A stretch of 34,695 bases of DNA from a virus. Both the position numbers and the translations under genes were made by a program. Below, one piece after another: positions 4,627-28,710 of the stretch (its first letter is position 1; each line of letters opens with the position of its first letter). The stretch spans positions 1 through 34,695 of IMG/VR virus record IMGVR_UViG_3300023180_000193; one strand, 5' to 3'. The notes under the pieces are model-generated. The model was not told the DNA's origin. It was given only the letters and a program-made list of their open reading frames with translations, and made no database searches.

Positions 4627-4903
4627 AGTAGATGTAGAATGGACTGAACACTACGCATGGTGGCCTGTGCGTAGCAGTTTCAGCAAAAAGCGCATCTGGT
4701 TTAAAAAATATCACGTAGGTGAAATATTTTATGATGCAATGGGTAGGCCACCTATAAAGGAAAAAAGTTGGAAACTCATTTATACTGAAAATGAGTATTT
4801 GATGTACCTTTTAAAACAGGATGAAAAATATAATCATCCTTTAGATCAGCCGCCTTTATTTATTAGTAGTAGGGGACGTAGTGGCCCCCTACCTGGGTAT
4901 TAA
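4610..4903 (+). CDS. Hypothetical protein (97 aa)
   Basis: An aromatic-rich small protein (EHYAWWPVRSSFSKKRIWF, then WKLIYTENEYLMYLLKQ) with no known motif. ATG 4610 lies inside the end of thyX; the longer upstream frame is only a shadow of thyX. Its stop overlaps the minus-strand phoH stop by 3 bases, so two convergent operons meet here with no intergenic space. A GC-rich inverted repeat lies in its 3' end (4869-4892). Confidence 0.72.
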   Translation: MPPIIEVDVEWTEHYAWWPVRSSFSKKRIWFKKYHVGEIFYDAMGRPPIKEKSWKLIYTENEYLMYLLKQDEKYNHPLDQPPLFISSRGRSGPLPGY

Positions 4904-5619
4904 GCATCTCCGTAAATAGTAAGAACTTCTTTTACCGCTTCATGTCTTTCAATATCTCCTTGAACAAAATGACATACAGCAATGTGTTGTGTGTCAGACT
5001 TTTCTAAATGGTTAACAAAATCAATAAGTCCGTTGTCTTTTAAGCGATCTGCTTGTGCTAAATCACCAGTGACAACCATTTTACTACCGTGACCTATACG
5101 TGTTAGTAGCATTTTCATTTGGTTAGGAGTTGCATTTTGCATTTCATCTGCAATTATGTAACTATTTTTAAAAGTGCGTCCTCTCATGTATGCCAAAGGA
5201 GATATTTCGATTACACCTTCTTTAATCATTCCTTCTATTTCATTTGAATAAAAATATTCACGGAATACATCAAAAATAGGTCGTGTCCATGGTGCCATTT
5301 TTTCTTCTAATGTACCTGGAAGAAATCCTAAATCTTCATCTGCACTAACTGCCGGTCTTGTAACAATAATCTTATCTACTTCTTTTTCAAAAAAACTTTT
5401 TACAGCAGCCTGTACTGCAAGCATAGTTTTACCTGTACCTGCTGGACCTATTCCAAAGACAATGTCTTTACCCGGTTCCAGTAACTTTAGTACATACGTT
5501 TCTTGATTTCTATTTCTTGGTATTATGTCTATGTTATGTTGTTTCTTTGGTAGGAAATTGTTTATTCTAACAACATTGTTGTTAAATGATTGTTGCCTTT
5601 TGGCTTTTGCTTTACCCAT
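4900..5619 (-). CDS. phoH: PhoH-like ATPase
   Basis: A 239-residue P-loop ATPase of the PhoH family: Walker A GPAGTGKT (58-65), the family motif TRPAV (87-91), GFLPG, Walker B IIADEMQN (155-162) and TGDLAQAD (184-191). PhoH proteins are frequent in marine phages; an RNA-related helicase or ATPase role has been suggested, and the phage function is unresolved. The start has a near-perfect AAGGAGG ribosome-binding site 7 bases upstream (complement of 5626-5632). It is one of only two minus-strand genes here and is divergent from the 5775 gene. Its 5' leader would contain the hairpin at 5641-5678. Confidence 0.94.
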   Translation of the reverse strand: MGKAKAKRQQSFNNNVVRINNFLPKKQHNIDIIPRNRNQETYVLKLLEPGKDIVFGIGPAGTGKTMLAVQAAVKSFFEKEVDKIIVTRPAVSADEDLGFLPGTLEEKMAPWTRPIFDVFREYFYSNEIEGMIKEGVIEISPLAYMRGRTFKNSYIIADEMQNATPNQMKMLLTRIGHGSKMVVTGDLAQADRLKDNGLIDFVNHLEKSDTQHIAVCHFVQGDIERHEAVKEVLTIYGDA

Positions 5620-7072: not shown

Positions 7073-7936
7073 ATGGCTAAAGAAGATTTCGATTTTGATT
7101 TCGAACCGTGGATGGCAGAAGAATTAATCCACAGAGATGATTGGGAAGAATGGTATGAAGCAATGTGCGAAATTCTTCCACTATGGGATATTAATACTAT
7201 TCCAAGAGTAGCAGGCTTTATTGCACAATGTGGACACGAAAGCGGCGGCTTTAGAGTTCTTACAGAAAATCTAAACTATAGTGCAAAAGCACTCAATACT
7301 ATTTTTCCAAAGTATTTCAAAAGAGCAGGAAGAGACGCAAATGAATATCATAGACAACCTGAAAAAATCGCTAATGTCATTTATGCAAACCGTATGGACA
7401 ACGGAGACACAGAGAGCGGTGATGGGTGGCGTTTCCGCGGAGGCGGCCTTATTCAGCTTACTGGACGTTACAACTACACTGAATTCGCCGAAGATGTAGA
7501 TATGACTGTAGAAGAAGCAGTGGACTATGTGCGTACCAAAAAAGGTGCGTTGGATAGTGCTTGCTGGTTCTGGGACGAAAACAACATCAATAAGCATTGT
7601 GATAATATGGACATTCTAAAAATGACCAAACGCATCAATGGTGGCACTATCGGATTAGAAGATCGCAAGAAGCATTGGGCACACGCATTAGATGTATTAG
7701 GCGGCGATATGGAAATGGAACCAGAAGAAGAAAAAGAGTTAAACACAAATCAAACTATTCGTCAAGGTTCACGTGGTCCACTAGTACAAGAAGTACAAGA
7801 GATATTGGGCATTGAGCCAGCAGATGGTATCTTTGGTCCAGGCACTGCTCGTCAAGTTAAAGAATGGCAAGCAGCAAACGGTCTAGTGGCAGATGGTATT
7901 GTAGGACCAAATACACTGGGAAAGTTGTTAGGGTAG
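7073..7936 (+). CDS. Endolysin: GH19 chitinase-like muramidase with peptidoglycan-binding domain
   Basis: The 287-residue protein has an N-terminal GH19-like lysozyme domain. The catalytic Glu is probably E56 in CGHESGGF, followed by ENLNYSAKAL, then RGGGLIQLTGRYNY (122-135), a hallmark of phage GH19 endolysins. From about residue 227 a PG_binding_1 domain follows (GSRGPLVQEVQEILG, DGIFGPGTARQVKEWQ, DGIVGPNTLGKLLG). It would cut the glycan backbone of peptidoglycan at the end of infection. It has no signal peptide, so a holin is needed. A hairpin may cover its ribosome-binding site; the spanin gene follows after 11 bases. Confidence 0.93.
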   Translation: MAKEDFDFDFEPWMAEELIHRDDWEEWYEAMCEILPLWDINTIPRVAGFIAQCGHESGGFRVLTENLNYSAKALNTIFPKYFKRAGRDANEYHRQPEKIANVIYANRMDNGDTESGDGWRFRGGGLIQLTGRYNYTEFAEDVDMTVEEAVDYVRTKKGALDSACWFWDENNINKHCDNMDILKMTKRINGGTIGLEDRKKHWAHALDVLGGDMEMEPEEEKELNTNQTIRQGSRGPLVQEVQEILGIEPADGIFGPGTARQVKEWQAANGLVADGIVGPNTLGKLLG

Positions 7937-7947
7937 GTGGTTTAGGT

Positions 7948-8436
7948 ATGGGCATGAAACTTGCAGGAGTAATGTTTTTGATAATGTGTGCTATGGGTGG
8001 CATAGGTTATTGGTATTATAATGACACGCAGCAACGCATGGCCATACTACAAGAAAACAACGCTAAACTAGAAATAGCAGTAGCAACCAACGAAGAAGCA
8101 TTAGAAAGTCTACAAGCAGATTACGCATCTGCACAAAACGAAATAGCAAGTCTAAATGATGCATACACTGCTATTCGTAGACAAAATCAAAGACTAGCTG
8201 ATAAATTACAAGAGATAGATTTAACAGCAGCAGCTATAGCAAATGCCGAAGGTATTGAACGTGCAGTAAATAGAGGTTCGGAAAATGCTGGTAGATGTTT
8301 TGAACTTCTATCGGGGGCAGAACTAACTGAAAAAGAAAGGACAGCAGAAAATGACATCGCTTTTAATAAAGAGTGTCCTTGGCTTTACGATGATTATAAG
8401 TCTCGCGGCCTGCTCAACCAAACCCCAGCAGATTGA
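7948..8436 (+). CDS. Rz-like inner-membrane spanin subunit (i-spanin) candidate
   Basis: A 162-residue protein with a single N-terminal transmembrane helix (about residues 3-22: MKLAGVMFLIMCAMGGIGYW). A long periplasmic coiled coil follows (QQRMAILQENNAKLEIAV, EEALESLQADYASAQ) and then a C-terminal region with two Cys. This is the architecture of lambda Rz. The position directly after the endolysin and the out-of-frame overlap with a lipoprotein gene support the call. I chose ATG 7948, since the longer frame runs into the endolysin; ATG 7954 is an alternative. Called by architecture, not by sequence homology. Confidence 0.72.
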   Translation: MGMKLAGVMFLIMCAMGGIGYWYYNDTQQRMAILQENNAKLEIAVATNEEALESLQADYASAQNEIASLNDAYTAIRRQNQRLADKLQEIDLTAAAIANAEGIERAVNRGSENAGRCFELLSGAELTEKERTAENDIAFNKECPWLYDDYKSRGLLNQTPAD

Positions 8437-8740
8437 GGTTAGTGCAAAACCAATAGAAAAACCAACATTAACACTACCTCCTGTTGATGAACTCAACATG
8501 AGAAAAGTAGAATGGATTGTTATCAATGAAGCTAATGTAGAAGCTGTTATTGCTAAACTAAAATCTGAAGGCAAAGCATTTGCACTATATGGATTAACAG
8601 GCGATGGCTATGGGAACTTAGGTTTAAACTTTTCAGACATCCGTGCACTAGTGCAGCAACAGCAAGCAATCATAGCAGCATACGAAGGCTATTATCAAGC
8701 AGCAGAAGAAGCAATGGAAGGTGCTGTGATAAACGAATAA
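8351..8740 (+). CDS. Rz1-like outer-membrane lipoprotein (o-spanin) candidate
   Basis: The protein has a lipoprotein signal peptide ending in the lipobox LAAC (Cys21), followed by a Pro-rich stretch (EKPTLTLPPVDELN). A domain reading FALYGLTGDGYGNLGLNFSDIRALVQQQ comes next; similar stretches occur in many phage proteins annotated as Rz1-like. It starts 86 bases inside the i-spanin gene in another frame, like the nested Rz/Rz1 pairs. Together the two would fuse inner and outer membranes at lysis, which implies a Gram-negative host. A late-type promoter overlaps its stop codon. Confidence 0.78.
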   Translation: MTSLLIKSVLGFTMIISLAACSTKPQQIEVSAKPIEKPTLTLPPVDELNMRKVEWIVINEANVEAVIAKLKSEGKAFALYGLTGDGYGNLGLNFSDIRALVQQQQAIIAAYEGYYQAAEEAMEGAVINE

Positions 8741-8743
8741 ATA
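8736..8743 (+). promoter_or_regulatory. T4-type late promoter candidate (AATAAATA)
   Basis: AATAAATAC overlaps the TAA stop of the o-spanin gene. Initiation would fall near 8749, 16 bases before the ATG at 8765, leaving room for the ribosome-binding site GAGGGC. Confidence 0.55.
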
Positions 8744-8764: not shown

Positions 8765-9067
8765 ATGTGGGAAATGATAGATAGAATGTTTGGTGATACA
8801 CTGTGGATTTACACAGCGATTGCCGGATCGTTGCTAGGGGCAGCATTCTTAGCGTGGTTTAGAAACACACACGCAGCACTTTACTTAATGTCAAAGTTTG
8901 ATGCTCTACTAGATTATCTAGTAGATCGTTTTGGATGGGACTGGTTACAGGACGATCCAGAGGCTTGGCGCAAACGGTATCCAAAAGTAACTAAAAAGAT
9001 TGACGACCTTGAAAGTCGTTTACAAAAAATAGAGGGCAAAATAAATGATAACGGAGATGAACTTTAA
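8765..9067 (+). CDS. Membrane protein of the lysis region (100 aa), possible holin
   Basis: One clear transmembrane helix (about residues 13-32: LWIYTAIAGSLLGAAFLAWF) is followed by an amphipathic, Trp-rich segment (LVDRFGWDWLQDDPEAW) and a short coiled coil (KKIDDLESRLQKIEGKI). The position between spanins and lipase suggests a lysis role such as holin, but single-span holins are diverse and the sequence is not diagnostic. It has its own late-type promoter. Its end overlaps the lipase start by 23 bases. Confidence 0.68.
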   Translation: MWEMIDRMFGDTLWIYTAIAGSLLGAAFLAWFRNTHAALYLMSKFDALLDYLVDRFGWDWLQDDPEAWRKRYPKVTKKIDDLESRLQKIEGKINDNGDEL

Positions 9068-9806
9068 GGAGCGTAGTCTCCTTTTTGCTAACTTGGCAAG
9101 CATAGCATACAGTGACGATGTAGAAGAAGTTAAAAAAGCAGTGCGCAAACTGGGCTTTACAACAGTAGAGTTTTACAACAGAGATGGCGCACAAGCATAT
9201 CGCTTTATGAACAAAACAGATTTGGTCATAGCGTGTCGTGGTACACAACCATCAGAGTTTAATGATATCAAAGCAGACTTAAATGCTGTTCCTGTTATTG
9301 CAGAAACAGTTAGTCGTGTACACAAAGGTTTCAAAGCAGAAGTAGACGAACTTTGGCCAATGGTGTTGGAAGACATTGATCGTAAGGCAAACGCAGGCAA
9401 AAAACTTTGGTTCTGTGGACACAGCCTAGGTGCTGCAATGGCAACTATTATGGCAAGCAGGTGTCACTTGTATGAAGATATTGATCCTGTACAAGAACTT
9501 TACACATATGGTTCACCGAGAGTAGGCTGGAATGGTTACTGCAAAAGCCTAGGTGTTACACATCACCGTTGGGTCAATAACAATGATATAGTAACACGAG
9601 TACCACTAGCAGCAATGGGTTACAAACATCATGGCACTGAGCATTATATGAATGCATATGGTAAATACCGTAAGTTAACAACATGGCAACGCATAAAAGA
9701 TCGTTGGCGTGGAATGTGGATGGGCATTAAACAGGGCAAGATCGACAACTTTGGAGATCATTCAATGACCGAATATATTGCCAACTTGGAAAAAATGGAG
9801 GGCTAA
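9045..9806 (+). CDS. Class-3 lipase / esterase (alpha/beta hydrolase)
   Basis: A 253-residue alpha/beta hydrolase. The nucleophile elbow is GHSLGAA (Ser127), and the likely triad partners are Asp181 in NNNDIVTRVP and His239 in GDHSM. DLVIACRGTQPSEFND and YTYGSPRVGW are typical class-3 lipase (Lipase_3) motifs. No signal peptide is seen, so it would act in the cytoplasm or after membrane disruption, on phospholipids or storage lipids. The lysis-region position suggests a role in envelope breakdown, which is unusual for a T4-like phage. ATG 9045 follows a GAGG; ATG 9057 is an alternative. Confidence 0.92.
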   Translation: MITEMNFKERSLLFANLASIAYSDDVEEVKKAVRKLGFTTVEFYNRDGAQAYRFMNKTDLVIACRGTQPSEFNDIKADLNAVPVIAETVSRVHKGFKAEVDELWPMVLEDIDRKANAGKKLWFCGHSLGAAMATIMASRCHLYEDIDPVQELYTYGSPRVGWNGYCKSLGVTHHRWVNNNDIVTRVPLAAMGYKHHGTEHYMNAYGKYRKLTTWQRIKDRWRGMWMGIKQGKIDNFGDHSMTEYIANLEKMEG

Positions 9807-9807
9807 C

Positions 9808-10272
9808 ATGCCAAGGAAAAAGCCAGAAGATTTAAAAAGCAGTGGAGCAGCACCGGAACCTAAGCCAGCAGCAACACCTGCACCAACACCGACACCAGCA
9901 CCTGCTCCTGCTCCTGCGCCAGTTGCAGCAGCACCGGCACCGCAACCTGTAAGTGGATATCATCCTGCAGACCTAAACGGTGACGGACATGTAGATGCTG
10001 AAGAAAAAGCAATGGAACTAGAGTTTCGTCGCAAGATGCTAGAAGACCAAGATGCAATGCGTGATGCACAACGCAGCATGGCTTGGTTTGCATTAGGGGG
10101 AATGTTGCTATATCCATTCAGTGTTGTACTTGCAGTTTGGTTAAGTTTAGATCAAGCAGCAGATGTATTGGGCAGTATGGCAGCAACATACTTTGTTTCA
10201 GTTGCAGCTATTGTAGCAGCGTTCTTTGGTGGACAAGCATACACGCAGTCAAGTTCAAACAAAAAGCGGTAG
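9808..10272 (+). CDS. Pro/Ala-rich membrane protein with EF-hand-like motif; possible holin
   Basis: The 154-residue protein has a basic start (MPRKKPEDL) and a long Pro/Ala/Thr linker (about 15-50). A DLNGDGHVDAEE motif follows, resembling a single EF-hand calcium loop, then a charged helix (EFRRKMLEDQDAMRDAQRSM). Two C-terminal hydrophobic helices (AWFALGGMLLYPFSVVLAVW and AATYFVSVAAIVAAFFGG) follow. The two-helix hairpin in a lysis cluster makes it a holin candidate, but calcium binding and holin function are both guesses. ATG 9808 is chosen because it follows the lipase stop by 1 base. Confidence 0.72.
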   Translation: MPRKKPEDLKSSGAAPEPKPAATPAPTPTPAPAPAPAPVAAAPAPQPVSGYHPADLNGDGHVDAEEKAMELEFRRKMLEDQDAMRDAQRSMAWFALGGMLLYPFSVVLAVWLSLDQAADVLGSMAATYFVSVAAIVAAFFGGQAYTQSSSNKKR

Positions 10273-15082: not shown

Positions 15083-15412
15083 ATGAAGATTGAAGATTTA
15101 AACTTAAAAATCGGTGACAAACTACCTTTCAATGTTGTAGAAGACATAGTAGTGTATATGAAAAATGATCCCGATTTTTATCGTAAAGAAGTATTTCCAA
15201 ACTTAGGTGGTGTACAAGAAGCAGTATTATCTGGTGGTAAGTTTAATAAAAAGAATCTCCTACCTATGATAGAAAAAGCATGTGAATCATATGTGCAAAA
15301 ATTTGATATTCCAAAAAGACCTGCTGATTTATTAAGCAGAGAAGAAAAAATGGAAGCTATTGGTATTTTACTTAAAGGTGAGGCAGACGCTTTCCGTAAT
15401 AAGGAATACTAA
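15083..15412 (+). CDS. Conserved phage protein (109 aa)
   Basis: A helical protein reading NVVEDIVVYMKNDPDFYRKE, then NLLPMIEKACESYVQKFDIP and MEAIGILLKGEADAFRNKEY. I recall relatives in marine T4-like phages without a function. ATG 15083 is used because it follows the previous stop directly; an upstream extension would lie inside the neighbour. Its last base is the first base of the next ATG. It is in the run of putative virion-cargo genes but lacks the (I/L)-x-E start. Confidence 0.78.
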   Translation: MKIEDLNLKIGDKLPFNVVEDIVVYMKNDPDFYRKEVFPNLGGVQEAVLSGGKFNKKNLLPMIEKACESYVQKFDIPKRPADLLSREEKMEAIGILLKGEADAFRNKEY

Positions 15413-16548
15413 TGCGTTTTCAAGAGTTCAAAAATATCAACGAAGCAAAACAAATGGGTCGGGCTTTTAATCATTTAGAAGACCTAGTGTTTTTCCACGG
15501 TGTCGAAGGAGCTCTCGAAGCAATAGAACATTTGCGTGACTTGGCTACACAAGAGGGTAGCAGCAGTATACGTATGAAATGGGACGGCAATCCACAAATA
15601 TATTGGGGTAGAGAAACAGCAGGTGGTCCACTAATACTTGGAGGACACAATCAATGGAGTCGCGGAGTTTTAGGTGACAGTCCTAAAGCAATACAAGACT
15701 TCATTATGAACAAAAGCGGAAATCCAAAAACGCCTGAAGAAAAGCAACAACGTGCAGAGTTTGCAAAACAGTTTGCAAGTATGTACGCAGACTTTGACAA
15801 AGCAACGCCAAAAGATTTTGTTGGGTTTGTTTATGGAGACGGACTATTTTTATCTCCGCCCGAGCTTAAAGACGGTGTATACACATTCTGTCCAAATCCT
15901 AAATCTCAAACTTGTTATCATGTAAGAGCAGAAAGCGAACTAGGACAACGTATTGCAAAAGCAAAGATTATGGTTGTAGGACATGCGGAGTTTCCAGAAT
16001 GGGGCATGCCAGACAGTGCGCAACAACCTAAAAACGATTTCAGTGAGTTTGGTGGCAATCCAAGTGTTATTGTACTAGGACCAGTATACAATACAAAACC
16101 AGTAAAGGTTGATACAAAAAATCTAGACACAGTGTCAAGATTTGCAAAAGCAAACAGCAAACTAATCGATGGTTTCCTAGCAAGTGTACAAGGATTAAGC
16201 GATCTCAAAAATATTATATACACCTATGTAAACCAAACAGCAAAAGCCAAAAACTTGGATAACTTGGGTGTTGAAAACTTTTTTACTTGGTTAAGTAATA
16301 GTAAAGTAAGTAAACCCAAGCAGGCAAAAATCAACGAGTTAAATAGTAAATACAATAATGCATTAAACGCTATCTTTACATTAGTAAAGCAGATTCAAAA
16401 TGCAAAAGACAATATTATAGATCAAGTAGAAGGCGAGCAAGGAGATATCTGGGATACCAACGGAGAAGGCAGAGTTCGTTATGCAGACAAAACCAAGAAG
16501 TTTGGTAATGTCAAACTTGTTCCAAGAAAAAGGTGGACACCGGGCTAA
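15412..16548 (+). CDS. Putative nucleotidyltransferase/ligase-like protein with capsid-targeting-like N terminus
   Basis: A 378-residue protein. IRMKWDGNPQIYWGR (Lys56, KxDG) resembles motif I of covalent nucleotidyltransferases such as DNA/RNA ligases, in which the Lys is adenylated. DFVGFVYGDGLF (136-147) could be motif III. GEGRVRY (351-357) followed by FGNVKLVPRKRW (364-375) resembles motifs IV and V (EGxV...KxK). About 200 residues between these sites are not ligase-like. The N terminus MRFQEFKNINEA resembles the T4 internal-protein leader MKTYQEFIAEA, with a possible cut after I-N-E. The ligase relationship is an inference from motifs; a structure prediction would decide. Confidence 0.8.
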   Translation: MRFQEFKNINEAKQMGRAFNHLEDLVFFHGVEGALEAIEHLRDLATQEGSSSIRMKWDGNPQIYWGRETAGGPLILGGHNQWSRGVLGDSPKAIQDFIMNKSGNPKTPEEKQQRAEFAKQFASMYADFDKATPKDFVGFVYGDGLFLSPPELKDGVYTFCPNPKSQTCYHVRAESELGQRIAKAKIMVVGHAEFPEWGMPDSAQQPKNDFSEFGGNPSVIVLGPVYNTKPVKVDTKNLDTVSRFAKANSKLIDGFLASVQGLSDLKNIIYTYVNQTAKAKNLDNLGVENFFTWLSNSKVSKPKQAKINELNSKYNNALNAIFTLVKQIQNAKDNIIDQVEGEQGDIWDTNGEGRVRYADKTKKFGNVKLVPRKRWTPG

Positions 16549-19759: not shown

Positions 19760-20624
19760 TCATATAGATGCGAAAGATTTCTATCAGTGGAAACCTTTTA
19801 AACAAAGAATATTAGAATCAAAGCACAATCATATAGTAATATGGAATCCGGGCGAATACAATATTACAAATGCAGTTGCAGAAGAAGAACTAGCATCAAC
19901 TATCACACAAGCAAATAAAACATATCGATTCATTACCAATAGACATTGGCCACTTTATTGGGCATATAAAACTATTGCAAGTACACATAAACAGATTTGT
20001 CCCAACAAGCCTAGTAAACTGTTTATATATCTTACAGGAAAAACTAGAGCGCACAGATGTTATTTTACAGATCAACTTGCAAGAGTTGGAATTTTAGAAC
20101 AAAACTATTTCAGTGTAAATGAATGGCCATGGAATGAAGAATATACATATGTGTATTGGAAAAATGCTAGAAAAGTTTTACTAGATAACATAAACAAAAA
20201 GGATTACTTTAATGTACCTGTACAGTTTGAAGATAGTCTTTTTAGCGTAGTAAGTGAAAGCAGAGTTGATAGTAAAATTTTCATAACTGAAAAAACTTTT
20301 ATACCGATATATCATAAACGTGCTTTTATAATACATGGCCCAGTTGGTATACATAAAAGACTACGTAAACTAGGCTTTTTTATGTTTGATGAAATATTTG
20401 ATTACACATTTGATTTTGTAACTTGCGAAAAAGAAAGAGCAAAGATTATTGCCGAACAGTTGTATCAGTTAAGCATTTCAAAAATCGAAGATTACAAAAA
20501 CTTGTTACAATATAAAGTAGAACATAACTATAACCATTTACTACATCTTGTTAAAAATCAACAATATATGCCAGATATCGATTTCACAGGATCTCCTTAT
20601 ACCCAGGCACTAAATATGTTATGA
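19752..20624 (+). CDS. Glycosyltransferase-like protein, paralog 1 of 6
   Basis: The 290-residue protein shares a pattern with five other genes here. KLFIYLTGKTRAHRCYFTDQ corresponds to the (R)xHRxxLxDxL segment, then DSLFSVVSES (VTES position), KIFITEKTFIPIYHKRAFII (TEK and RPF(I/V) positions), LRKLGFFMFDEIFDYTFDF (GFxxFDDxFDYSFD). The VTES...TEKT...PF...G pattern resembles the nucleotide-sugar end of GT10 fucosyltransferases (GT-B fold); this is an inference. ATG 19752 overlaps the previous stop; GTG 19734 is an alternative. The stop overlaps the radical SAM start (ATGA), tying the two together. Confidence 0.8.
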   Translation: MIDHIDAKDFYQWKPFKQRILESKHNHIVIWNPGEYNITNAVAEEELASTITQANKTYRFITNRHWPLYWAYKTIASTHKQICPNKPSKLFIYLTGKTRAHRCYFTDQLARVGILEQNYFSVNEWPWNEEYTYVYWKNARKVLLDNINKKDYFNVPVQFEDSLFSVVSESRVDSKIFITEKTFIPIYHKRAFIIHGPVGIHKRLRKLGFFMFDEIFDYTFDFVTCEKERAKIIAEQLYQLSISKIEDYKNLLQYKVEHNYNHLLHLVKNQQYMPDIDFTGSPYTQALNML

Positions 20625-21703
20625 AACAAAAAGCAAGTCCTTATTGTTGGGCACCTTGGATTAGTTTTCAACATGGCAATGTCCTACAGGGAAATACACC
20701 TTGTTGTGAATGGCAAGGCGATAGACATAGTGGTAGCATAGAAGACTACTTTAACGGCAAATATCTAAAAAAGATAAAAAAGGCAATGATTAATAAAGAC
20801 ATGGACTTTATTAAGACAACCTGTGCAGAATGTATTGAAAACGAAGAAGTAGGTATAAAGAGCAGACGTTTAAGATATTTTGATGATCCTCATGTGAGAG
20901 AAAATAAAACCGAAAGCGTGGTTTACTTTGATTATAGACCTAGTAACTTGTGTAATCTGAAATGCAGTATGTGTAATCCAGAAGCAAGTAGTTTGATAGC
21001 TAAAGAACTTAAAGATTTTGTAAAACAAGATTATATATTACCTAAAGACTACAAAAACTTTGACATGGCAAGTATGCGTCAAATTACTGTTATAGGTGGA
21101 GAACCAAGCATACAAAAAGAAGTTTATGATTTTTTAGATTATTGCTGCGACCTAGGATTAAATGATACTTGCCACTTGCATTTTACAACCAATGCAACCA
21201 ACTGTAATAGACAATGGATGTCAAGAGTAGAAAAATGGAAAAGTAAAAGTGTCGAAATAAGTTTAGATGGTGCAGGAAAAACTTTTGAATATATTAGAAC
21301 TAATAGTGATTGGAAAACTATTGAAAAGAACTGTAAAATATATGAGGAAGTTGTTGTCGATGTTGCATACCATATTACTGCACTTGCGTATAATATACCT
21401 AATGTAGAAGATTGGATTGAATGGTTTTTAGACAAAAAAGAAGTTGCAATATATCCAGTGCACGGTTTGCCTTATTTGGGGATGGATATTATACCAGATG
21501 ATGTTAAAAATAAAAAATTAGAATATTTAAAAAAGTTTGACAAGCCTTTTGTTAATACGCTTATTGAAATCATAGAACAAAGCACTTACAATCCTAAACT
21601 AGCTGAGAAACTGGTATACAAGACAAGAGAACAACAGGATCTGAGAAAAGGTGATATTTATAGCGTAAATGAAATATATAAATACATTATACCAGGAATA
21701 TAA
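20621..21703 (+). CDS. Radical SAM enzyme 1 (360 aa)
   Basis: The [4Fe-4S] motif CNLKCSMC (Cys111, 115, 118) is preceded by YFDYRPSNL and followed by ITVIGGEP (GGEP 159-162), as in SPASM/twitch radical SAM proteins. Additional Cys occur at the N terminus (PYCWAPW, TPCCEW, CAEC), possibly binding another cluster or zinc. Such enzymes cleave SAM to a deoxyadenosyl radical, often to modify peptides or sugars. Relatives occur in marine phages without known substrate. It is co-translated with a glycosyltransferase-like gene upstream. A perfect late promoter lies in its 3' end. Confidence 0.9.
   Translation: MKQKASPYCWAPWISFQHGNVLQGNTPCCEWQGDRHSGSIEDYFNGKYLKKIKKAMINKDMDFIKTTCAECIENEEVGIKSRRLRYFDDPHVRENKTESVVYFDYRPSNLCNLKCSMCNPEASSLIAKELKDFVKQDYILPKDYKNFDMASMRQITVIGGEPSIQKEVYDFLDYCCDLGLNDTCHLHFTTNATNCNRQWMSRVEKWKSKSVEISLDGAGKTFEYIRTNSDWKTIEKNCKIYEEVVVDVAYHITALAYNIPNVEDWIEWFLDKKEVAIYPVHGLPYLGMDIIPDDVKNKKLEYLKKFDKPFVNTLIEIIEQSTYNPKLAEKLVYKTREQQDLRKGDIYSVNEIYKYIIPGI
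21677..21685 (+). promoter_or_regulatory. T4-type late promoter (TATAAATAC, exact consensus)
   Basis: TATAAATA is a perfect match to the T4 late consensus, followed by C. Initiation would fall near 21690, 15 bases before the ATG at 21705. It lies at the end of the radical SAM gene and would serve the run of small leader-bearing genes. Confidence 0.65.
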
Positions 21704-26468: not shown

Positions 26469-27566
26469 ATGTTTTATTATCCATACGAGCAAAGTTTTCT
26501 TCAACGACTGAATGGAAAAATTAGCAAATCTCCCACATTAGAGCATATGGTTAGCAACCTGCACTTGCCAGAGTTTTTAAGCAAGTTGTGCATAGAGTCA
26601 AGCAATATCATTCTCGATGATTTAAAACATATTTCAAATGAAACTGTTTATTATTTTTGTCCAACAGAACCTTTGCCCTTTGTTACACCTGACTTTATGG
26701 AACAGGCAAATAAGTTGTGCAAAACAAATAACAATCATTTTTATATAGTACATAACAATCTACTTGATGATTTGGAAAACTATTATGGTACATTTTCACA
26801 TATACATTTTATCAACAACATGATATTGAATGTCGGTAGAGCATATGTGGAAAGTTTGCAGTATATCAAAATGGATAAAACATATGATTTTGATAAGGCT
26901 TACATAAATCTCAACAACAAAGGTAGATACAATCGGTATTTGCTTATTGACGAGATTTACAAACACGGTTTGGAATCACACGGTTACATCAGTTGGGATA
27001 GCAAACAATCAACAGAAGACTTGTTGCACTACAGCATTGACTACAAGTTACAATACTTTAACGGCAAAAGAATACAACTAGATAATAATATCAACTATTT
27101 AGACGAATCTATAAACTCAAGAGGATTGATAAACATTTGCAGTGAGGTTCAAGAGTATTGGTTTTATGTAAAAAATATCAGTGAAAAAACCATGTATGCA
27201 TTGATGACAGAAAAACCGTTTGTAGTTATAGGAGGACAAAATAATAACACTGTGTACAAGGACTACGGATTTGAAATATATGATGAACTATTTGATTACA
27301 CATTTGATGCAAATGATAGTTTGGAACAAAGGATAAAAGGTGTAGTTCAAAATCTAAAATATATTTCACAACAAGATTACAACAAACTGTACAACAGTGT
27401 GCGTGACAAAACCATACATAATAAAAAACAGTTTTTGCAACTAGTGCAAAAACAGCTGGAATACAGCAAAGACTTGATTTCACTGTTGAGCAAGGATAGC
27501 GATCATCCTGATATGATCAAACACAAAGGATACTACAATGGCGTCATTCAGTTACTGGAGAACTAA
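26469..27566 (+). CDS. Glycosyltransferase-like protein, paralog 3 of 6 (365 aa)
   Basis: The family pattern is present but more diverged: YINLNNKGRYNRYLLIDEIY with KHGLESHGYISW, then KNISEKTMYALMTEKPFVVI (SEK and KPF(V) positions) and DYGFEIYDELFDYTFDANDS, then LEQRIKGVVQNLKYI. The VTES position reads CSEVQEYWFYV, so this paralog lacks part of the proposed donor-binding motif and may be altered in activity. It starts after a short gap. Its end overlaps radical SAM 2 by 29 bases, again pairing a family member with a radical SAM gene. Confidence 0.78.
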   Translation: MFYYPYEQSFLQRLNGKISKSPTLEHMVSNLHLPEFLSKLCIESSNIILDDLKHISNETVYYFCPTEPLPFVTPDFMEQANKLCKTNNNHFYIVHNNLLDDLENYYGTFSHIHFINNMILNVGRAYVESLQYIKMDKTYDFDKAYINLNNKGRYNRYLLIDEIYKHGLESHGYISWDSKQSTEDLLHYSIDYKLQYFNGKRIQLDNNINYLDESINSRGLINICSEVQEYWFYVKNISEKTMYALMTEKPFVVIGGQNNNTVYKDYGFEIYDELFDYTFDANDSLEQRIKGVVQNLKYISQQDYNKLYNSVRDKTIHNKKQFLQLVQKQLEYSKDLISLLSKDSDHPDMIKHKGYYNGVIQLLEN

Positions 27567-28710
27567 AAGGTATCTCGACAGTGTAGGTGAAGGCTTTTGC
27601 TTGGAAAAATGGCACAGCAATACTGTGCATTTAGGCACAGGTACAGAGCACGGCTGTCATCATGTAGCGCCTGTCAAAATACCGCTAGAAGAAATCAAAA
27701 ACAATCCTTATGCATTATTCAACCACTCTCATAAAAGACAAGTCCGTCAAGAAATGCTACAAGGTAAAAAACCAGACGAATGTGCATACTGTTGGAGAGC
27801 AACAAAAACACAAGATAGGGTGCTACAAAGCAGCAAGTATTACAACTGGGAAAACAGAGATCAGGCCACCGGCGAATACAGTTTGCCCAAATATCTAGAA
27901 GTGAGTTTAGGAAACACTTGCAATCTAGCATGTGCATACTGCGGTCCTAGTTTCAGCAGCAAATGGGCAAGCGAAATAAAACAACATGGAAATCTGCATC
28001 ATATAGGTTATGTACCAACTATTACCAAAGATAATCCTTATAAAAAAGCGTTTATGGAGATATGGCCTAACTTACATCCTGGATTAGAAGAGTTGAGATT
28101 CACTGGTGGCGAACCTTTGCTGTATCATGAAATATTTGATCTCATAAAAGATGTTAATGAAAAATGTGATGTTATCATTAACACAGGATTGGGAGTTCCA
28201 AAAGATTTACTGGAAAAGTTTTTAGAGAAATCCTCACATATTGACACAGTGATATTTGCTATCAGTGGAGAGAGTGCAGGTGCTCAAGCGGAGTACACTA
28301 GACACGGTATCAACTACAACGACTTTTTGAAAAATGTTGAGTTGATATCAAAACAGCACAATGCTGATATAGAACTGATGACGGTTTACAATGCACTGTG
28401 TCTAGAATCATACACTGATTATATTTCAGATATGCAAAACATTGCCAAAGTAGATATAGGTGTAAGTGAACTCACTACACCCAGTTTCTTACATCACAGT
28501 CTGTTTGATGTAAATAAACAGCATCATTTAGATTTTTTAAAAAAGCACAACTCTAAAGCACACAGTCAGCTGGAAAGTATCTTGACAAAAGAACAAAAAT
28601 ATGATATAGTAGTTGAGCGTGAAAATTTTAAAAAATTTGTGAATGCTTACGATCAGCGTAGAAACACAGATTTTACACAAACATTTAAAGTATTAGGAGA
28701 ACTTATATGA
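27538..28710 (+). CDS. Radical SAM enzyme 2, twitch/SPASM-like (390 aa)
   Basis: The cluster motif CNLACAYC (Cys128, 132, 135) follows KYLEVSLGNT, and FTGGEPLL lies near residue 188. Upstream are CHHVAP and CAYCW (residues 40-86), which could bind a further cluster. The C-terminal half (FAISGESAGAQAEYTRHGIN, YNDFLKNVELI) fits the SAM-binding barrel. The substrate is not visible; relatives occur in marine phages. It overlaps a glycosyltransferase-like gene upstream and the DsbA-like gene downstream (ATGA). Confidence 0.9.
   Translation: MASFSYWRTKRYLDSVGEGFCLEKWHSNTVHLGTGTEHGCHHVAPVKIPLEEIKNNPYALFNHSHKRQVRQEMLQGKKPDECAYCWRATKTQDRVLQSSKYYNWENRDQATGEYSLPKYLEVSLGNTCNLACAYCGPSFSSKWASEIKQHGNLHHIGYVPTITKDNPYKKAFMEIWPNLHPGLEELRFTGGEPLLYHEIFDLIKDVNEKCDVIINTGLGVPKDLLEKFLEKSSHIDTVIFAISGESAGAQAEYTRHGINYNDFLKNVELISKQHNADIELMTVYNALCLESYTDYISDMQNIAKVDIGVSELTTPSFLHHSLFDVNKQHHLDFLKKHNSKAHSQLESILTKEQKYDIVVERENFKKFVNAYDQRRNTDFTQTFKVLGELI

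Follow-up and report, generated by a model that had tools for sequence, protein, structure and literature searches.

A class-3 lipase gene beside the lysis genes of a T4-like virus fragment and its recurrent neighbor, a small membrane protein

Accounts of how phages lyse Gram-negative hosts usually name holins, endolysins, and spanins (see also PMC6139136 and PMC9636201). The virus fragment analyzed here, a stretch of 34.7 kb referred to as the window (34,695 nucleotides), carries a lipase gene among its lysis genes, which raises the question of whether digestion of host lipids contributes to the way in which this phage leaves the cell. PHROG matches of the clamp loader and the DNA polymerase mark the window as T4-like. 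For the polymerase, 2582 named phage records gave matches, none of which reaches 60% identity (50.7% being the best among the matches listed), and megablast of positions 1-25000 against named phages returned no match. A marine source is likely, to judge only from the marine origin of several named relatives. Records holding a lipase of the window type reach 236-257 kb. No Rfam or tRNA hit was found in the window, sigma-70 and terminator scans stayed near chance level, and the NCBIfam search gave no useful match. The window also encodes two radical-SAM-like proteins (PHROG 14086; 20621-21703 and 27538-28710), and a similar N-terminus of the MRF/MRY-x-EF type was noticed by eye in several proteins without assigned function (window 15412-16548 and its homologues, and proteins of loci L086 and L082), where it may be a shared sorting signal.

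All genes of the lysis cassette lie on the + strand. The first encodes a GH19-like endolysin with a peptidoglycan-binding domain (7073-7936; PHROG 181, E 8.2e-71; PG_binding_1, E 9.6e-13), the Glyco_hydro_19 match of which (E 0.00037) is below its cut-off. It is followed by an Rz-like i-spanin with one transmembrane segment (7864-8436; PHROG 739, E 2.9e-7, and hydropathy), for which 7864 is the choice of the ORF caller and the true start may be later, and by an Rz1-like lipoprotein taken as the o-spanin (8351-8740; PHROG 812, E 6.2e-7, with a lipobox recognized by eye). These spanins point to an ordinary Gram-negative envelope. Next comes the gene that we call mem100 (8765-9067), whose 100-residue product has one N-terminal transmembrane segment according to hydropathy and alignment A2, and a C-terminal part that is charged and, by eye, coiled-coil-like. 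No informative family match for mem100 was obtained in Pfam, PHROG, or NCBIfam, and its structure model (pLDDT 49.7, pTM 0.27) is too poor for use. The lipase gene (9045-9806) overlaps mem100, starting 23 nt before its end, and the ATG of the following gene, PAmem, lies 1 nt past the lipase end. PAmem (9808-10272, with the ATG chosen where the ORF list has a TTG start at 9778) encodes a two-transmembrane protein by hydropathy, with a Pro/Ala-rich N-terminus, an EF-hand-like stretch (EF-hand_5, E 0.0097, below cut-off), and the two segments forming a hairpin at the C-terminus; it is a holin candidate by appearance only. The order on this strand is thus endolysin, i-spanin, o-spanin, mem100, lipase, PAmem, DnaJ, peptide deformylase, and Clp ATPase, and the initial annotation, which had placed the lipase between membrane-protein genes downstream of the endolysin and two spanins, matches this order.

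By sequence comparison and modeling, the predicted product of the gene at 9045-9806 (+ strand; complete ORF with an ATG start, 253 aa) is a class-3 lipase, and this enzyme call is solid and far beyond chance. Pfam Lipase_3 (PF01764) is matched at E 7.7e-19 (68.4 bits, the cut-off being 22) and PHROG 21992 (esterase/lipase) at E 1.6e-24; no cutinase family was matched up to E 0.1 in Pfam or PHROG, where the matches were Lipase_3, weaker families, and PHROG 21992. By phmmer, the nearest solved structures belong to the lipase of Rhizomucor miehei and its relatives (E 2.3e-14). In a fold comparison, an AlphaFold2 model (pLDDT 78.4, pTM 0.81) made from 39 aligned sequences matches 3tgl over 215 residues at 3.2 A (Z 18.7) and a plant phospholipase A1 at Z 16.0. 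The Ser-Asp-His triad that had been read from the letters, S127 in GHSLG, D181 in NNDIV, and H239 in DHS, was confirmed as complete: all three residues, and likewise the RGT loop, are invariant in 39/39 sequences of the alignment (the window lipase and 38 relatives). When the window lipase is taken together with 54 lipases linked to mem100, the serine is present in 54 of 55 (the exception being truncated) and the aspartate and histidine in 55 of 55, and the triad is kept in relatives down to 33% identity. The model falls below pLDDT 50 at residues 68-91 and 234-238; the former stretch, which follows the RGT loop, aligns with the region of the fungal lipases that we take to be the lid. Neither a transmembrane segment (by hydropathy) nor a signal peptide (by eye) was seen in the protein. 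Compared with the lipase of L003, the gene is under constraint (dN 0.042, dS 0.83; NG86, this one pair).

Where the gene lies in other genomes was examined in the close relatives of the window lipase. The lipase is abundant, with 509 and at least 593 confirmed stretches in two overlapping IMG/VR scans (and at least 590 for mem100), and the close lipases are the best 80 of each of the two lipase scans; together these gave 152 lipase loci, some contigs being present twice, and 84 distinct lipase genes. In 66 of the 84, the lipase stands beside the gene for an 84-aa virion-structural protein (PHROG 11854, E 5.3e-15), divergently in 60 and codirectionally in 6, a position that counts against a role in lysis; of the rest, 7 lie in the cassette and 2 next to mem100 with no cassette in view, and 9 have other surroundings. 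Exactly one lipase was found in each of the 22 records searched (22/22), and in three of the large records (G004, G009, and G016) this single copy lies elsewhere while the cassette is without a lipase. A conserved position in the cassette, for which the relatives were checked, was therefore not found, and the lipase as a fixed lysis gene of the phage group was rejected, given 7 of 84 in the cassette and three cassettes without it. Among the seven lipase records longer than 100 kb, all of which contain mem100, the two genes adjoin in three and are far apart in four (G004, G009, G013, and G016). The lack of shared neighbors had suggested that the lipase-bearing phages are unrelated, which is ruled out by a DNA polymerase of the window type at 78-82% identity in 5 of the 22 lipase records; because two of these polymerase-sharing records, G013 and G016, hold the lipase outside the cassette, the gene has moved within one phage group. 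A tree of 62 lipases, drawn from 84 distinct proteins (a set other than the 84 genes of the context count) by removing copies that shared a context and were at least 95% alike and by leaving out L090, L092, and L093, has starred branches that force at least four changes of cassette label. Recombination inside a mosaic gene may mimic such moves, and we therefore place little weight on the tree as evidence of independent entries into the cassette. The lipases are indeed mosaic: those of L024 and L011 are 93, 69, and 93% identical in successive segments (alignment A1, columns 106-180), which indicates recombination inside the gene. In some cassettes, among them those of L014 (5189-5755) and L036, an extra lipoprotein-like protein of CHAP type lies between the o-spanin and mem100; the L014 copy matches Pfam CHAP at E 1.5e-5 but, with 25.8 bits, stays just under the cut-off of 26, and the protein is perhaps a second peptidoglycan hydrolase.

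A different picture emerges when mem100 is followed instead of the cassette: the lipase has a recurrent partner gene, mem100, in other phage backgrounds. The mem100 loci are the best 80 of at least 590 confirmed stretches, ranked by the window's own lipase-linked mem100 in a search in which lipase-linked loci supplied 7 of the 10 query rows, so that the sample is biased toward such loci. Neighbors were labeled with a rough ORF caller and blastp to seeds, and some neighbor genes will accordingly have been missed. Labels were obtained for 74 of the 80 loci, 54 of which (54/74) have a lipase, placed within two genes and on the same strand in 52/74. In the six unlabeled loci, which were left out of the 74-locus and 41-locus counts, tblastn found mem100 in all and a lipase close by, just upstream, in L233 and L241. 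Of the loci without a cassette label, 41 have distinct mem100s (they are not independent lineages), and 37 of them have a lipase within two genes; in a control in which all neighbors of these 41 loci were clustered, the next most frequent neighbor was a 50-aa hydrophobic protein (26 loci), followed by clusters found in 10, 5, and 4, and 5/41 have a PAmem homologue within two genes. In distinct cassette-type mem100 loci, a lipase occurs within two genes in 3 of 17. In addition to the three lipase-less cassettes of G004, G009, and G016, no lipase is seen in 17 mem100 loci that carry lysis-type labels, one of which (L243) is again record G016. The pairing extends well beyond close relatives of the window, with 42 of the 54 mem100-linked lipases being 33-51% identical to the window lipase (below 60%). 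The lipase gene comes first in all 42 of these and mem100 first in all 12 closer ones; since order is thus tied to lipase subfamily, the loci represent fewer independent events than their number would suggest. Whole-record searches of 21 mem100 records without an adjacent lipase (fragments of 12-126 kb) revealed no lipase; 17 of the 20 labeled lipase-less mem100 loci were searched in this way, L185, L194, and L243 being excluded, and G016 (the record of L243) has its lipase elsewhere. The adjacency of lipase and mem100 suggests joint late action on host membranes. We found no description of the pair among open-licence PubMed Central papers, and it may still have been published.

In five loci (L214, L217, L226, L242, and L241), the pair itself adjoins spanins, in the order lipase, mem100, i-spanin, o-spanin. 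These lipases are 33-38% identical to that of the window; L214 and L217 have nearly the same layout, and so do L226 and L242; in these four loci the lipase and mem100 genes overlap by 1 nt. The backbone around the spanin-adjoining pairs, with two conserved genes upstream (the first of 122 aa) and a small protein, primase, and nrdA downstream, is shared with L248-L250 (records G046, G048, and G049), with Prochlorococcus phage P-SSM2, and with L247. An endolysin and a short acidic protein stand between the second conserved gene and the spanins in L248 and L249 (in the latter, the i-spanin is the sole spanin labeled), and L250 has an endolysin at the corresponding place, its contig ending before the spanins; in L214, the stretch between the second conserved gene and the spanins includes two further ORFs. 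The corresponding places upstream of the spanins are thus occupied by lipase and mem100 in L214, L217, L226, and L242 and by an endolysin in L248, L249, and L250, the L214-type contigs being short, so that an endolysin may lie elsewhere in those genomes. L233 has an endolysin homologue on the opposite strand, about 2 kb away from its lipase-mem100 pair. Against a link to the spanins, the pair in the 182-kb record G046 (locus L187) is separated from the endolysin and spanins by about 26 kb.

The upstream regions bear on the time of expression. In the window, an ATAAATA motif of the T4 late-promoter type (8737-8743, + strand) lies 22 nt before the mem100 start and overlaps the o-spanin stop codon. 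The late promoter reported for cyanophage S-PM2 is NATAAATA (PMC2984593). Exact copies of TATAAATA number 3 in the window against 3.6 by chance, and ATAAATA is not enriched window-wide (13 sites against 15.7 expected), with 7 of the 13 sites at most 90 nt upstream of a same-strand ORF start; the weight given to the motif before mem100 comes from its presence in relatives and not from window-wide enrichment. Among 76 distinct 80-nt regions upstream of lipases, 61 are neither in a cassette nor just after mem100 nor codirectional with the virion gene, and 56 of these 61 lipases, which start their own unit, have ATAAATA upstream: 45 of the 50 that diverge from the virion gene and all 11 of the remainder, against shuffle means of 1.5 of 50 and 0.8 of 11. 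The motif lies 21-28 nt before the lipase start in 40 of the 56. It is absent directly upstream of the lipase in the cassette (0/7), in the codirectional arrangement (0/6), and after mem100 (0/2). For mem100, the pattern depends on what precedes it: where no lipase is labeled in the two genes upstream, ATAAATA lies within 80 nt of the start in 27 of 31 distinct regions (at 19-30 nt in 26 of the 27), and where one is labeled there, in none of 32. In lipase-first loci, just 9/33 have the motif in the upstream stretch examined, so that late timing is at most a possibility for that order. A T4-late-type motif before the mem100-lipase unit, as a motif rather than a transcript, speaks against early expression of the predicted lipase.

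Our preferred reading, to which we give a little less than an even chance, is that the product is a late, cytosolic lipase that works with mem100, attacks host phospholipids, and helps to open the envelope. The annotated role in lysis comes through this analysis in part: the expectation of a conserved place in the cassette fails, and the role regains support because the lipase recurs beside the cassette gene mem100 and the pair adjoins spanins in five loci. The class-3 lipase family acts on lipid at an interface. Lacking an export signal, the lipase would be made late together with mem100 and would reside in the cytosol; mem100 would hold or admit it at the cytoplasmic membrane, where the charged C-terminal part of mem100 could bind the enzyme. 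The lipase would then hydrolyze host glycerophospholipids from the cytosolic face, and the fatty acids and lysolipids released would weaken the inner membrane. After opening by the holin, the attack might continue in the periplasm on the inner leaflet of the outer membrane, and the spanins and endolysin would finish the envelope. We infer the phospholipid substrate, the binding to mem100, and the contribution to lysis from gene context and fold.

Three other explanations have to be weighed. According to the first, which we hold to be unlikely, the enzyme recycles host lipids, freeing fatty acids and phosphate-bearing head groups for replication, and its place in the cassette is accidental. Of the 84 distinct close lipases, 47 have a Pst-, Prs-, or PiT-like gene no more than six genes away; for example, Prs and a PstB/A/C-type ABC transporter stand in line beside the lipase of L088, a PstS-type binding protein lies near that of L020, and the window itself has phoH (4900-5619, a name read from the sequence). 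However, the PiT-like label is a by-eye reading, as are the labels curli, coiled coil, and 2OG-type, and the PiT-like protein has no Pfam match; without it, the count drops to 20/84, and to 6/84 for Pst alone. In the usual layout, moreover, the lipase is on the strand opposite to the phosphate genes and has its own late-type motif, none of the seven cassette-type loci has such genes within six genes (0/7), and the recycling of lipids leaves the pairing with mem100 unexplained. The arrangement of Prs and the PstB/A/C-type transporter by the lipase (L088, 5777-10448; see also L058) is on a phage-like contig binned with a Neomarinimicrobiota MAG. A Pfam search of three proteins from a putative curli-like neighborhood gave no match.

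That the lipase is instead packaged in the virion, to attack the host envelope when the phage enters, is a proposal that we consider quite improbable. The late-type motif and the frequent place beside a virion-structural gene (PHROG 11854) are in its favor, and in cyanophage S-CREM1 a predicted distant lipoprotein-lipase homologue is reported among 14 phage proteins of the virion proteome (PMC9964418), this protein (ORF157) being comparable with the window lipase by description only. On the other hand, the window ORF consists of the lipase alone, with no fusion to a structural domain seen, and the pairing with a membrane protein is left unexplained. An arrangement of enzyme and guard, in which mem100 would inhibit the lipase in an immunity-like manner until it is needed or the pair would exclude other phages, is the least probable of the three, for although the two genes are on the same strand in 54/54 labeled loci with both and a distant fold match (9cys, Z 12.5) shows a secreted bacterial lipase effector in a structure that includes its immunity protein, they lie apart in G004, G009, G013, and G016, which would be unusual for a tight antidote pair, and mem100 is also found in cassettes without a lipase.

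For a late lipase acting with mem100 at the host membrane, known systems provide several points of comparison. The enzyme family of the window lipase is known, and the protein resembles the lipases of the Rhizomucor miehei type and plant phospholipase A1 in fold, sharing with the former the GHSLG nucleophile elbow and the Ser-Asp-His order; unlike the Rhizomucor miehei-type lipases, it is small, has no signal peptide that could be seen, and comes from a phage gene with membrane and lysis genes as neighbors. Lysis cassettes with lipolytic enzymes are likewise already known, as reported for LysB and a GDSL lipase. Mycobacteriophage LysB, a lipolytic serine hydrolase of the lysis cassette, helps to remove the outermost barrier (PMC6116114), but it is cutinase-like and splits mycolic-acid esters, whereas the window protein belongs to Lipase_3. 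In a Pseudomonas siphophage, a GDSL lipase gene is described upstream of holin and endolysin in the lysis cassette, and exogenous killing by a fusion of the GDSL lipase with an endolysin is reported to need the lipase active site (PMC12173070); this enzyme is of another family than the window lipase and has a carbohydrate-binding domain. Among marine phages, lipase annotations exist in P-SSM2 and P-SSM5. The class-3-type lipases of P-SSM2 (204 aa, 34.6% identity over 41% of the query) and of marine virus AG-345-O18 (207 aa, 28.9% over 62%) are shorter than that of the window, and in each case the next gene encodes a small hydrophobic or amphipathic protein, with primase and nrdA farther downstream. 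In P-SSM2, the lipase and then a 70-aa protein lie just upstream of the 122-aa gene, which is the same neighborhood as that of the L214-type pair but another slot. The window mem100 and spanins found no match up to E 0.01 in the lipase stretches of P-SSM2 and AG-345-O18.

A broader proposal, and a doubtful one, is that some T4-like phages possess a lipolytic module for membrane attack, in which a class-3 lipase is delivered by mem100, often together with a tiny hydrophobic protein. If this were true, host membranes would be broken from inside by the digestion of lipid, a chemical step of lysis as opposed to one based on pores or fusion, present in several phage backgrounds and sometimes at the place of the endolysin beside the spanins. 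A common lipase-mem100 pair would add lipid digestion to the means of lysis, together with free fatty acids at lysis. The hydrophobic protein, of 50-52 aa, is found near mem100 at L180:5266-5424, L169:5595-5747, L187:5491-5643, and L220:5339-5497; the L180 copy has no Pfam or PHROG match, and the protein is a holin-like candidate by appearance only.
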